Assembly: GCF_020532645.1 (NCBI RefSeq)
Contig: NZ_JAJAUZ010000011.1
Coordinates: 62,001 to 126,000, forward strand
Direction of reading: 5' to 3'
DNA: 64,000 nt
Source: Streptomyces bambusae
GTDB taxonomy: Bacteria; Actinomycetota; Actinomycetes; Streptomycetales; Streptomycetaceae
The first letter of the stretch is position 1, and each line of letters begins with the position of its first letter. The translations under genes were made by a program, and so were the position numbers. The notes under the pieces were generated by a model. That model did not search any database. It was not told where the DNA came from and was given only the letters and a program-made list of their open reading frames with translations. Shown one piece after another: positions 43,257-47,253 of this stretch.

Positions 43257-43757
43257 ATGTCCAGCGAATACGCCAAACAGCTCGGGGCCAAGCTCCGCGC
43301 CATCCGCACCCAGCAGGGCCTTTCCCTCCACGGTGTCGAGGAGAAGTCCCAGGGCCGCTGGAAGGCGGTCGTGGTCGGGTCGTACGAGCGCGGCGACCGC
43401 GCCGTCACGGTCCAGCGCCTGGCCGAGCTGGCGGACTTCTACGGGGTGCCGGTGCAGGAGCTGCTGCCGGGCACGACTCCCGGCGGGGCGGCCGAGCCGC
43501 CGCCGAAGCTGCGCCTGGACCTGGAGCGCCTGGCCCACGTCCCCGCGGAGAAGGCCGGCCCGCTGCAGCGCTACGCGGCGACCATCCAGAGCCAGCGCGG
43601 TGACTACAACGGCAAGGTGCTCTCGATCCGCCAGGACGACCTGCGCACCCTCGCGGTCATCTACGACCAGTCCCCCTCGGTCCTCACCGAGCAGCTGATC
43701 AGCTGGGGCGTGCTGGACGCGGACGCCCGCCGTGCGGTCGCCCACGAGGAGATCTGA
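43257..43757 (+). CDS. bldD: BldD, developmental master repressor (c-di-GMP effector)
   Basis: A 166-residue regulator of Streptomyces development. The N-terminal XRE-type helix-turn-helix (LGAKLRAIRTQQGLSLHGVE) binds DNA. The C-terminal domain holds the c-di-GMP signature: RQDDLRTLAVIYDQSPS corresponds to the RXD-X8-RXXD region (R-Q-D, then D in YDQSP). GGGAG lies upstream of the ATG at 43257. It is divergent from pyrR and is probably autorepressed. Its presence is strong evidence for a Streptomyces or a close relative. Confidence 0.97.
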   Translation: MSSEYAKQLGAKLRAIRTQQGLSLHGVEEKSQGRWKAVVVGSYERGDRAVTVQRLAELADFYGVPVQELLPGTTPGGAAEPPPKLRLDLERLAHVPAEKAGPLQRYAATIQSQRGDYNGKVLSIRQDDLRTLAVIYDQSPSVLTEQLISWGVLDADARRAVAHEEI

Positions 43758-43994: not shown

Positions 43995-44426
43995 CTATTC
44001 GCCCCGTCGGAGGCTCGGCTTGAGGTCCTTGAAGCGGGCCAGCAGCCCGTTCACGAACGCCGGGGAGTCGTCGGTGGAGAACTCCTTGGCCAGCTGGACC
44101 GCCTCGTCGATCGCCACGGCGTCCGGGGTCTCGTCGACCCAGATCAGCTCGTAGGCGCTCAGGCGCAGGATGTTCCGGTCCGCGACCGGCATCCGGTCGA
44201 GGTCCCAGTCCACCGCGTACGTGGCGATCAGCTCGTCGATGCGGGTCACCTTGTCGGCGTAGCCCTCGACGAGGTCCATGGTGAACGCGTTCACCGGCGG
44301 CTGCCGGTCGTCCGACCGGTGGTGGCGGACCCAGTCCGCGAGGACCTCCCGCACGGGGACCCCGCGCTGGTCGGCCTCGAAGAGGATCTGGAAGGCGCGC
44401 TTGCGCGCGTTGCTCCGGGCAGCCAC
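43995..44426 (-). CDS. nusB: Transcription antitermination factor NusB
   Basis: Binds boxA RNA with S10 in rRNA antitermination. The 143-residue all-helical protein has RKRAFQILFEADQRG, LIATYAVDWDLDRMPVADRN, AYELIWVDETPDAVAIDEAV and FVNGLLARF. It follows efp by two bases. Length is typical. The start is GTG. Confidence 0.96.
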   Translation of the reverse strand: MAARSNARKRAFQILFEADQRGVPVREVLADWVRHHRSDDRQPPVNAFTMDLVEGYADKVTRIDELIATYAVDWDLDRMPVADRNILRLSAYELIWVDETPDAVAIDEAVQLAKEFSTDDSPAFVNGLLARFKDLKPSLRRGE

Positions 44427-44428
44427 GG

Positions 44429-44995
44429 TTAGCTGTTCACCCGGCCGAGGTAGTCGCTGGTGCGGGTGTCGACCTTGATCTTCTCACCGGTGGTGATGAA
44501 GAGGGGGACCTGGATCTCGTGGCCGGTCTCCAGGGTGGCGGGCTTGGTGCCACCGGTGGAGCGGTCGCCCTGGACGCCCGGGTCGGTGTGCTGGATGGTC
44601 AGCTCGACGGCGGCCGGGAGCTCGACGTAGAGCACCTCGCCCTCGTGCTGGGCGACGGAGGCGGTGAAGCCCTCGATCAGGAAGTTGGCGGCGTTGCCGA
44701 CCGCGGCCTTCGAGACCATCAGCTGGTCGTAGGTCTCCATGTCCATGAAGACGAAGTACTCGCCGTCCATGTAGGAGAACTGCATGTCGCGGCGGTCGAT
44801 GTTGGCCGTTTCGACCTTCACGCCCGCGTTGAAGGTCTTGTCGACGACCTTGCCGGACAGCACGTTCTTGAGCTTGGTGCGCACGAAGGCCGGGCCCTTG
44901 CCGGGCTTGACGTGCTGGAACTCGACGACGGACCAGAGCTGGCCCCCGTCGAGCTTGAGCACCATGCCGTTCTTGAGGTCGTTCGTGGAAGCCAC
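44429..44995 (-). CDS. efp: Elongation factor P
   Basis: Relieves ribosome stalling at proline-rich sequences. The 188-residue protein has three domains. Domain I carries [18 protein letters not shown], with the usual modification-loop lysine. The C-terminal OB domain has [20 protein letters not shown]. The GTG at 44995 has AGGAG eleven bases upstream. The gene follows a peptidase-like gene by 52 bases. Confidence 0.97.
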
Positions 44996-45047
44996 GGTTG
45001 CCAAATCTCCTGGACTGAAAGACCGCGGGTGCGCGCTCAGCCGAAAG

Positions 45048-46154
45048 CTAGAGCGCGAGCAGCTCCTTGGTCGTAATGGTGAGTAGCTCGGGTCCGCCGT
45101 CCGCCTCGGGGCGTACGACGAGCGTGTCAACAATCCGGACGCCGCCCCGGCCCGGGAGGTGGACTCCCGGTTCGACGGTGACCGGCACGCAAGCGTCCAG
45201 TTTACCCATTGCGGCAGGTGCCAGCTGCGGGTCCTCGTGGATTTCGAGTCCGACCCCGTGTCCCACCGAGCCCGGGAGGGCTTCGCCGTGCCCTCCGGTG
45301 TCCACGACCTGGCGCGCAGCGCGGTCCACGTCGCGGTACGCGGCGCCCGGCAGGAGCGCCTCCCGGCCGGCCCGCTGGGCGGCGAACACCAGGTCGTACA
45401 GCTCGATCTGCCAGTCGGCGGGGCTGGTGCCGATGACGAAGGTGCGGCCGATCTCGCAGCGGTAGCCGCGGTAGTTGGCCCCCAGGCAGACGGAGAGGAA
45501 GTCGCCCTCCTCGACCCGCCGGTCGGTGGGGCGGTGGCCGCCGCGGCCGGAGTGCGGGCCGGTGCCGACGGAGGTGGGGAAGGCCGGGCCGTCTGCGCCG
45601 TGGTCGACCAGGCGGCGTTCCAGTTCCAGTGCCAGATGGCGTTCGGTACGGCCGACCAGGATGGACTCCAGCAGTTCACCGAGGGCCTGGTCGGCGATCT
45701 CCGCGGCGATCCGCAGGCACGCGATCTCCTCCTCGTCCTTCACCAGCCGCTGCTGCTCGACGGCGGGGCCGAGATCGGCCAGGCGGAGCCGGGGTGCCAC
45801 CGAGCCCATGGCGCGGTGCCGGGCGACGGTGAGGTGGTGCTCCTCCACCGCCAGCGCGTCGGCGCGGGCGCCGGCCGCGGCATCGGCGGCCGCGACGGCC
45901 GGGTCGCCCTCGGTGGCGTGCAGGACGGTGCAGCGGAGCAGTTCGTCGAGCCGGCCCTCGTCGGGCTCGCCGGTCGGGGCGCCGGCGCAGAAGAGGACGT
46001 CCTCGGCGGGGCCGACGAGCAGGACCGCGCCGCGGGGGGCGGCGCCGGTCAGGTAACGGACGTTCGCGGGGCGCGAGATGAGGGCGGCCGCGTTGCCGGC
46101 GGCGTTGCAGCGGTCTCTGAGCCGGCCACGGCGGGCCGCGTACACCTCTGACAT
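45048..46154 (-). CDS. M24-family aminopeptidase-like protein with missing metal ligands
   Basis: A 368-residue homologue of Xaa-Pro aminopeptidase/dipeptidase. The creatinase-like N-terminal domain and the pita-bread fold are clear ([29 protein letters not shown]). Of the five metal ligands, His299 and Glu328 are kept. The first Asp is Cys223 (SVCLG in place of the usual DFG), the second is Glu234 (CEIGRTF), and the last Glu is Val342 (GVRIVD in place of GVRIED). Normal two-metal catalysis therefore looks unlikely. It lies directly upstream of efp, a conserved arrangement usually annotated pepQ. Confidence 0.8.
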
Positions 46155-46280
46155 GTCACGAGCGTACGAGTGTGCCCGGTGCGGGGCCTGTTGAGCGCGT
46201 CCGGATGGGGCGGGCCCCCGGGACGGCCTCCGTTTGGCTTCCGGTCACGGTGCGGGGACCTTGCGGGGCTGCGCCCGGTA

Positions 46281-46310
46281 CCCCGGTCCTCAAACGCCGG
46301 ACGGGCTGGA
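46281..46310. repeat. Dispersed repeat core (CTCAAACGCCGG family)
   Basis: CCCCGGTCCTCAAACGCCGG plus ACGGGCTGGA here match 28 of 30 bases of 62065-62094, and the reverse complement is related to the 5.9 kb and 62.2 kb copies. It lies between the convergently spaced ends of the P-loop gene and the peptidase-like gene promoter; no gene is supported in 46155-46328. Confidence 0.75.
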
Positions 46311-46328
46311 TTTCGGGCCCTCGGGGGG

Positions 46329-47090
46329 TCACCAGCGGGGTGGGGTCGATATCGCTCGGGCCAGGGTTTCGTCGAGGGCTCGGGCGGTGGCTTCCACGTC
46401 GTGGTGGGAGTTGTCGATGATCGGGAGGCCCGAGCCGTACCAGCCGGCCATGCGGCCGTGGATGCGGGCGACCTCCTCGTCGGACAGGCGGCGGTTGCCG
46501 CTGCGCTCGGCGTTGCGCTCCAGGACGATCTCCAGGCCGGGCAGCAGGACCACCGGGAGCAGCCCGGGGCCCACGTGCCGCTTCCAGCCGCCGAGGCCGA
46601 CCACCGGCCGGTCGGGGAAGACCGCGTCGTCGAGGATGCAGGAGATCCCGTTGGCGAGGAAGTTGCGGGCGGCGAAGCCGCAGGTCCGGCGGGCCAGCCG
46701 GTACTGGGCCTCGGAGTGGTCGTTCCAGCCGGACTGCGGGTCGGCGAAGCCGGAGACGACCCATTCGCGGACGTCGTCGAGGCTGATGTGGGCGGTGGGC
46801 ACCGGGCGGGTGCTCGCCCAGTGCCGGGCGACGGTGGTCTTCCCCGCGCCCGCCGGGCCGATCAGCAGGACCGCGAGGGTGGCGCCGCGGGTGCCGGGCA
46901 CGGCCGGGGGGAGCGTCACGTGGCCGGTCGGGTCCGGCACCGGCTGCGGCATCGGCGGCAGCATGGCCGGCGGCGGCACCGGCGGGGCCGTCCAGCCGCC
47001 CGCGGACGGACCGGCCGGCGGTACCGGAACGCCGGGGTGCGGTCCAGGATGATGTCCCGGCTGACCCCACCCGCCCACTGCATGCTGCAT
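46329..47090 (-). CDS. P-loop ATPase/kinase-like protein with proline-rich N-terminus
   Basis: A 253-residue protein. The first 65 residues are rich in Pro, Gly and His and probably disordered. The Walker A GPAGAGKTT (residues 78-86) follows. Later segments ISLDDVREWVVSGFADPQSG and VVLLPGLEIVLERNAERSGN resemble AAA_33 / polynucleotide-kinase-like proteins. Substrate is unknown. The ATG at 47090 has GGAG nine bases upstream; a longer GTG start at 47129 lacks one. It lies between aroQ and the peptidase-like gene and is likely conserved in Streptomyces. Confidence 0.75.
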   Translation of the reverse strand: MQHAVGGWGQPGHHPGPHPGVPVPPAGPSAGGWTAPPVPPPAMLPPMPQPVPDPTGHVTLPPAVPGTRGATLAVLLIGPAGAGKTTVARHWASTRPVPTAHISLDDVREWVVSGFADPQSGWNDHSEAQYRLARRTCGFAARNFLANGISCILDDAVFPDRPVVGLGGWKRHVGPGLLPVVLLPGLEIVLERNAERSGNRRLSDEEVARIHGRMAGWYGSGLPIIDNSHHDVEATARALDETLARAISTPPRW

Positions 47091-47253
47091 TCGGTGCCAC
47101 TCCGTCTCGCGCGCCCGCTGGTTCTTCACAACCGATGCAGGAACGTTATCGCCCCCGGCCGTCTCGCAGTGAACGGGCGGGGGCGGTCCGAAGTGCCCGG
47201 GGTCCGGCGATGGCCGGAAGGACCCGGCCCGGGCGGGTGCCCGGGCCGGTCCG

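Follow-up and report, generated by a model that had tools for sequence, protein, structure and literature searches.

Why is a prolidase-like gene that has lost its metal site kept directly upstream of efp, the gene for EF-P, in Streptomyces? The gene lies in a 64,000-nucleotide stretch of Streptomyces bambusae DNA (termed the window below), and its product carries a Creatinase_N domain (E 1.5e-15) and a Peptidase_M24 domain (E 2.5e-51). A first-pass annotation, made from the sequence alone, had noted three changed metal ligands (Cys223, Glu234, Val342) in a preserved fold and had offered two readings, a non-catalytic partner role or a novel chemistry at Cys223. Features of the locus are collected in Table 1.

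The claim that an M24 peptidase-like fold survives the ligand changes was borne out by the Pfam domains and by structure prediction. Creatinase_N and the pita-bread M24 fold of an active M24B Xaa-Pro peptidase are both present in our AlphaFold2 model (mean pLDDT 80.6, pTM 0.76), whose best structural match, nearly full length, is the Xaa-Pro dipeptidase 3q6d_A (Z 36.5, rmsd 3.2, 346 aligned residues); at the level of the model, the predicted prolidase fold is supported. Behind it stands an alignment of 23 sequences, in which the window protein was joined by 21 orthologues from a named set with 79 usable members (see below) and by one M24 protein from a viral contig. The latter came from two viral-contig scans, run for wider alignment diversity, of which one gave no locus and the other two. 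Residues 296-318 and 362-368 have pLDDT below 50; an earlier model, built on a different alignment, was of low quality (mean pLDDT 65.1, about 30 at the C-terminus).

Alignment with solved prolidases confirmed the three ligand changes: the set D-D-H-E-E reads C-E-H-E-V in the window protein, with Cys223 and Glu234 at the two Asp positions, Val342 at the last Glu, and His299 and Glu328 retained. The ligand set of E. coli PepQ is given as Asp246, Asp257, His339, Glu384 and Glu423 in PMC4213023. The loss extends beyond what was first noticed, since second-shell His206 and His295 are also gone; the window protein has Gly206, Gly295 and His306. Judged by ligand spacing, residues 206, 295 and 306 should correspond to H243, H350 and H361 of E. 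coli APP, Ala mutants of which occur among the titles of structure entries.

Table 1. Features of the pseudo-prolidase locus, in positions of the window
Feature	Codons	Positions	Strand	Basis
Pseudo-prolidase gene, M24B fold, 368 aa		45048..46154	-	domain search, alignment, structure model
P-loop (AAA_33) kinase-like gene, Pro-rich N-terminal tail, start codon uncertain		46329..47129	-	AAA_33 E 5.2e-10
efp (EF-P), three Pfam EF-P domains		44429..44995	-	domain search
nusB		43995..44426	-	domain search
bldD, divergent		43257..43757	+	domain search
Protein-level frozen segment, two helix ends and the turn between	157-184	45603..45686	-	tree changes, synonymous rates, model
Gly where canonical orthologues (65/65) carry His	206	45537..45539	-	orthologue alignment
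Cys for first ligand Asp	223	45486..45488	-	prolidase and orthologue alignments
Glu for second ligand Asp	234	45453..45455	-	prolidase and orthologue alignments
His ligand retained	299	45258..45260	-	prolidase and orthologue alignments
His, shared by only 3/183 degenerate loci	306	45237..45239	-	orthologue alignment
Glu ligand retained	328	45171..45173	-	prolidase and orthologue alignments
Val private to window genome; Asp in 154/157 genus loci, Glu in canonical	342	45129..45131	-	orthologue alignment
Segment frozen at nucleotide level	313-368	45051..45218	-	synonymous rates
TAAACT, -10-like hexamer, putative efp promoter element	317-319	45199..45204	-	conservation at codons 317-319

Relatives were sampled non-randomly, best matches first and then the remaining genus matches together with more divergent rows. 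The genus sample comprised 121 genomes, 118 of which have an orthologue (two of them fragments). In the three others, and in a fourth genome from a second genus search, efp is also absent from the assembly, which indicates assembly gaps; every genome of the genus sample in which efp was found has also kept the prolidase-like gene. For the wider Streptomycetaceae, 41 genomes of 17 genera were searched and 35 loci fetched: the full ligand set is present in two genera, g86 and g89 (7 loci), and lost in 14 others (28 loci). In what follows, degenerate loci are the 155 full genus loci plus these 28 (183 in all), and canonical loci are the 7 of g86 and g89, 9 from the same order and 49 from other families of the class (65 in all). 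Three partial loci were excluded from both sets (L223, L224, and L103, in which both Asp are present). A separate set of 80 named loci, most of them from Streptomyces plus a single record each from Streptantibioticus and Kitasatospora, overlaps in part with species of the main set and was not added to its counts; one of its loci (L268) gave no row, and all 79 usable orthologues are degenerate.

Both ligand Asp are absent from 183/183 degenerate loci and from 15 of the 17 sampled genera, and neither occurs in any of 157 genus loci examined, whereas His206, Asp223, Asp234, His299, His306, Glu328 and Glu342 stand in 65/65 canonical efp-adjacent orthologues. A mutation peculiar to the strain, which the first-pass annotation had named as what would undo its reading, is therefore rejected for the site overall and accepted for Val342 only: the losses of Asp223 and Asp234 are clade-wide and Val342 is private, position 342 in the genus being Asp in all but three loci (one each of Val, Glu and Gly). 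Orthologues with all five ligands do exist in other lineages, but they represent the ancestral state and not the background of a strain-specific loss. At position 234 the genus has Glu (133), Gln (16), Arg (4) or Ala (3), with one locus unread. The second shell went the same way; His is found at position 206 in 2/183 degenerate loci, and the degenerate clade also lacks His295 as well as four N-domain residues (S41, T56, D57, R59) that canonical loci conserve. The most divergent degenerate orthologue (L335 of genome G406, genus g99; 444 aa by ORF extension) has E223, A234 and Q342, and a kinase gene is adjacent to it. The change from GAT to GTT at codon 342 of the window gene also makes TTGACA from ATGACA on the minus strand.

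The prolidase site was lost once, in Streptomycetaceae, after the two earliest sampled genera had split off. In a tree of 73 rows with the active-site columns left out, the degenerate loci are monophyletic (support 100, stem length 0.53), with canonical g86 and g89 as their sister group, so that one loss explains the distribution of the two states. Two subclades followed the loss, one with Ala or Ser at 223 and 234, Gly328 and a kept Glu342, the other, which contains Streptomyces, with Arg or Cys223, Gln or Glu234 and Asp342. The seven active-site columns, without a single change on the canonical tree (65 rows, length 20.2), changed repeatedly on the degenerate tree (183 rows, length 21.5): 25 times at 206, 19 at 223, 15 at 234, 6 at 299, 23 at 306, 5 at 328 and 5 at 342.

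The protein is under purifying selection and is not decaying. Over rising dS bins, median pairwise omega within the genus is 0.12 (93 pairs), 0.21 (2036), 0.24 (9450) and 0.25 (356), where EF-P, computed for identical pairs, gives 0.15, 0.27, 0.34 and 0.36; these are NG86 values, crude at high GC, from pairs that are not independent. No internal stop was reported among the orthologue matches listed.

Constraint has shifted from the active site to other segments. Residues 157-184, which in the AlphaFold2 model are the end of helix 141-162 plus helix 171-184, changed 330 times on the canonical tree and 25 times on the degenerate one, and none of 5000 site shuffles (which ignore correlation between neighbouring residues) gave a 28-residue stretch as extreme. 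Within the genus this segment shows 0.4 residue changes per site while its synonymous sites change freely (32.0 changes per 4/6-fold codon), so the constraint acts on the protein; the same pattern of protein-level constraint with free synonymous change holds for residues 101-264. Relative to the canonical loci, segments 101-116, 209-224 and 313-324 have also slowed, and 33-104 and 281-308 have sped up, with S41, D57 and R59 of the N-domain motif (65/65 canonical) among the fastest-changing positions of the degenerate clade. The freeze is not wholly due to the loss and partly predates it, since the rate of residues 157-184 relative to the mean is already 0.41 in the 16 closest canonical loci, against 1.06 in 17 farther ones, and falls to 0.15, 0.07 and 0.04 in three degenerate subsets; residues 353-368 do not change at all in the 16 closest canonical loci. 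A non-catalytic duty may thus be older than the loss of the site, and the freeze of 157-184 may also reflect stability or a dimer interface.

On this evidence we consider it likely that the pseudo-prolidase is a non-catalytic binding protein descended from an EF-P-linked M24B Xaa-Pro peptidase. The dinuclear metal site and the second-shell His were lost once, after which the protein was kept as a core protein whose function would be non-catalytic. Most likely it works by contacting another protein with the face around residues 153-188 (two helix ends and the intervening turn), while the former active-site cleft and the substrate loop of the N-domain are free to drift. Since cleft and loop drift and the helix-turn-helix face does not, contact with the partner is more probable there than in the cleft, and the frozen segment is our predicted binding surface. 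Partner candidates would be the co-gained P-loop kinase described below and, as for Ebp1, EF-P, the ribosome or nascent chains. The non-catalytic half of the first-pass proposal is in this way supported by the single loss, the retention with efp, the purifying selection and the moved constraint.

The cleft could instead retain a role of its own, in substrate binding or around a single metal, with His299, Glu328 and Asp342 forming the core of a sensor for Xaa-Pro peptides. Of 157 genus loci, 154 retain His299, 148 Glu328 and 154 Asp342, and the three residues change little in Streptomyces, so some ligand binding in the cleft may remain; His207 and Glu307 are moreover invariant (183/183). We nevertheless think this reading distinctly unlikely, because the other subclade has Gly328 (Gly in 11/183 degenerate loci overall), with Glu342 kept instead, and because the cleft-facing residues 289-306 and the N-domain loop have sped up, not slowed.

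A second layer of constraint acts on the DNA. Synonymous changes average 8.4 in the last 41 4/6-fold codons and 23.6 over the gene (0/20000 permutations), and 97-100% of genus loci share the unusual codons GGT-AAA-CTG (317-319) and CTA (357). The former spell TAAACT, and 183/183 degenerate and 57/64 canonical loci (one of the 65 was not registered) have a TAnnnT hexamer at codons 317-319, compared with about 0.0035 per in-frame site elsewhere; in degenerate loci it lies 195-315 nt from the efp start. A consensus promoter scan of positions 44300-46400 gave no match, and no RNA family was found there at E<=1. There is no -35 element at the usual spacing, 4-of-6 matches occurring only at a spacer of 14 (88/183 degenerate, 0/60 canonical). 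In S. venezuelae a WhiA ChIP-seq peak is reported 191 bp upstream of the efp start (PMC3781837), and in S. coelicolor SCO1491 (EF-P) is placed in the modelled HrdB regulon (PMC6344877). The conserved hexamer, the synonymous freeze and the published ChIP data, with no full consensus, make this a predicted promoter: the TAnnnT hexamer is probably that of efp, lying within the upstream ORF and older than the family. Because it apparently holds the efp promoter, the 3' part of the ORF would double as a DNA element, and full deletion of the pseudo-prolidase gene would probably harm efp expression and be misread. Two further observations concern the same region. A WhiA motif, GACAC, lies at 45124-45128 (minus strand, codons 343-344) and may be incidental, because the encoded Asp-Thr is conserved anyway. 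The first efp codons (44950-44995, minus strand) are nearly without synonymous change in the genus, with 2.0 and 6.0 changes in the first two twelfths of the gene against an average of about 13.

That the ORF is kept for nothing but an efp promoter or leader in its 3' end is very unlikely. The synonymous drop, the TAnnnT hexamer and the WhiA peak would all agree with it, but a DNA-level layer accounts only for the frozen C-terminal codons, from about 304 onward, and not for residues 101-264, whose constraint is on the protein, nor for the absence of internal stops among the scored loci.

About equally improbable is a role in mixed dimers, with the pseudo-prolidase regulating an active M24 paralogue. 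Prolidases are described as head-to-tail dimers (PMC4213023), and many genus genomes have a paralogue of roughly 35% identity, canonical in 9/9 fetched; but a second match at E<=1e-30 is found in 100/121 genus genomes and is lacking in the window genome. The eight M24 matches of the window genome do include proteins with an intact ligand set (L002-L006), beside one without the His (L007) and a partial one (L008), so peptidase capacity remains in the cell.

We see hardly any room for an enzyme with a new chemistry, in which Cys223 would be a nucleophile or a new metal ligand. Cys is the commonest state at this position (132/183 degenerate loci), and the usual Streptomyces set, C-E-H-E-D, consists of possible metal ligands. 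The position is variable, however: the other degenerate loci have Arg (27), Ala (9), Ser (6), Gly (5), Asn (2), or else Val or Glu, and within the 157 genus loci the counts are C 121, R 24, G 5, S 3, N 2 and A 1, with one unread. The earliest Streptomyces lineages bear Arg223, so that Cys223 looks like a later state, and the other subclade has Ala or Ser. With 19 changes at this position on the degenerate tree, Val342 private, Glu328 replaced by Gly in some loci and the His at 206, 295 and 306 largely gone, chemistry at Cys223 was rejected. As for a slowly decaying pseudogene, the drift of the active-site residues is what one would expect of it, but omega well below 1, the near invariance of residues 157-184 and the lack of internal stops already contradict it, and we give it practically no chance.

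If the pseudo-prolidase is a binding protein, as we prefer, which neighbour could be its partner? The efp start lies 52 nt downstream on the same strand. As efp is also downstream on the same strand in 65/65 canonical orthologues, this neighbourhood is ancestral, and adjacency by itself says little about partnership with EF-P; Saccharopolyspora has a pepQ-efp-nusB-bldD region (PMC3359211). In Firmicutes, gene order has led to the proposal that Xaa-Pro aminopeptidase is linked to EF-P, clearing stalled polyproline products (PMC7327921). We found no EF-P position that met our thresholds for a fixed difference where the prolidase site was lost, and in an EF-P tree of the same taxa the stem is 0.07 (0.56 for the prolidase) and the degenerate clade is not monophyletic. 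This lack of co-change speaks against a reading centred on EF-P.

A kinase gene lies directly upstream of the pseudo-prolidase gene. It is adjacent to 172/183 degenerate loci (149/155 in the genus, 23/28 in other degenerate genera) and to none of the 65 canonical ones (0/7 in the same family, 0/9 in the order, 0/49 in the class), always on the prolidase strand (172/172) and with a median gap of 127 nt. It is missing beside 11 degenerate loci; the upstream flank is short in 4 of these, and 8 of the 11 genomes carry the kinase elsewhere; at E<=1e-10 it was not found in three of the 183 degenerate genomes (G032, G099, G048). Genome-wide it was found in 0/20 canonical genomes, and in 0/137 class genomes outside the genus in a limited first look that scored 17 candidates in most genomes. 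Its P-loop domain is strongly conserved (167-row alignment) and its Pro-rich tail evolves fast; all 159 tails scored contain PP, 121 contain PPP and 119 the motif TGHxx[LM]PP, with a mean proline fraction of 0.29.

The kinase is at least as good a partner candidate as EF-P. Gain of the kinase and loss of the site co-occur on one branch, which is a single event of small statistical weight, and we treat it as a lead only. In the fullest form of this lead, the loss and the gain would be one event, the dead prolidase would be the dedicated non-catalytic subunit or receptor of the kinase through helices 153-188 (perhaps binding the TGHxxLPP motif of the tail), and EF-P would serve translation of the Pro-Pro runs of the kinase; we put this forward tentatively, as a possibility we think rather improbable. 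Were it true, Streptomycetaceae would have a new module of their own, made of a pseudoenzyme and a kinase and tied to the translation of proline-rich proteins.

Streptomycetaceae thus offer a natural experiment, in which the peptidase site is gone while the gene, its place and much of the protein stayed; catalysis is therefore not what keeps this gene beside efp. Automatic names such as aminopeptidase P would mislead for the degenerate clade. A non-catalytic role can be put to direct test in a model antibiotic producer. Among open-licence full texts we found no literature on the window protein or on loss of the ligand site in Streptomyces. In sum, this M24 pseudopeptidase is bacterial and linked to EF-P; its site was lost once, at a datable point, its constraint has moved, its ORF embeds a putative efp promoter, and a kinase neighbour was gained with the loss.

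Creatinase, a metal-independent M24 relative and a structural match (1chm, Z 31.8), carries its catalytic His on the loop that leads to the first ligand, at a position that we take to be Gly206 of the window protein; a catalytic His is accordingly lacking here, as it is in nearly the whole degenerate clade. The N-terminal domain of Spt16, a subunit of FACT, is also a non-catalytic pita-bread fold (5ce6, Z 29.6), but it is part of a eukaryotic histone chaperone and is 17% identical in the structural alignment. The M24B enzymes PepQ and PepP share the full-length fold and two-domain layout, the PepQ region of Saccharopolyspora also the gene order with efp, nusB and bldD, and the tree has the window protein descend directly from such an enzyme; it differs from them in lacking three of the five ligands, His206, His295 and the N-domain motif, all or nearly all of which are missing throughout the clade.

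Closest in kind is the eukaryotic Ebp1 (PA2G4), an M24 fold without a working metal site and with a non-catalytic role. The window protein likewise combines an M24 fold and a lost metal site with retention under selection after the loss, and two of five ligands remain in it as they do in Ebp1 (PMC11266112). Ebp1 is reported to cover the ribosomal tunnel exit, docking on uL23/uL29 through its insert domain (PMC7005732), and in Leishmania an over-expressed Ebp1 homologue is reported to have raised eIF5A, the eukaryotic relative of EF-P, about six-fold (PMC3888471). An M24 fold that lacks its metal site can serve translation, as Ebp1 shows. For the window protein the likeness is one of analogy: its clade is bacterial and of independent origin, from M24B proteins with Creatinase_N, and docking at the tunnel exit is a feature of Ebp1.
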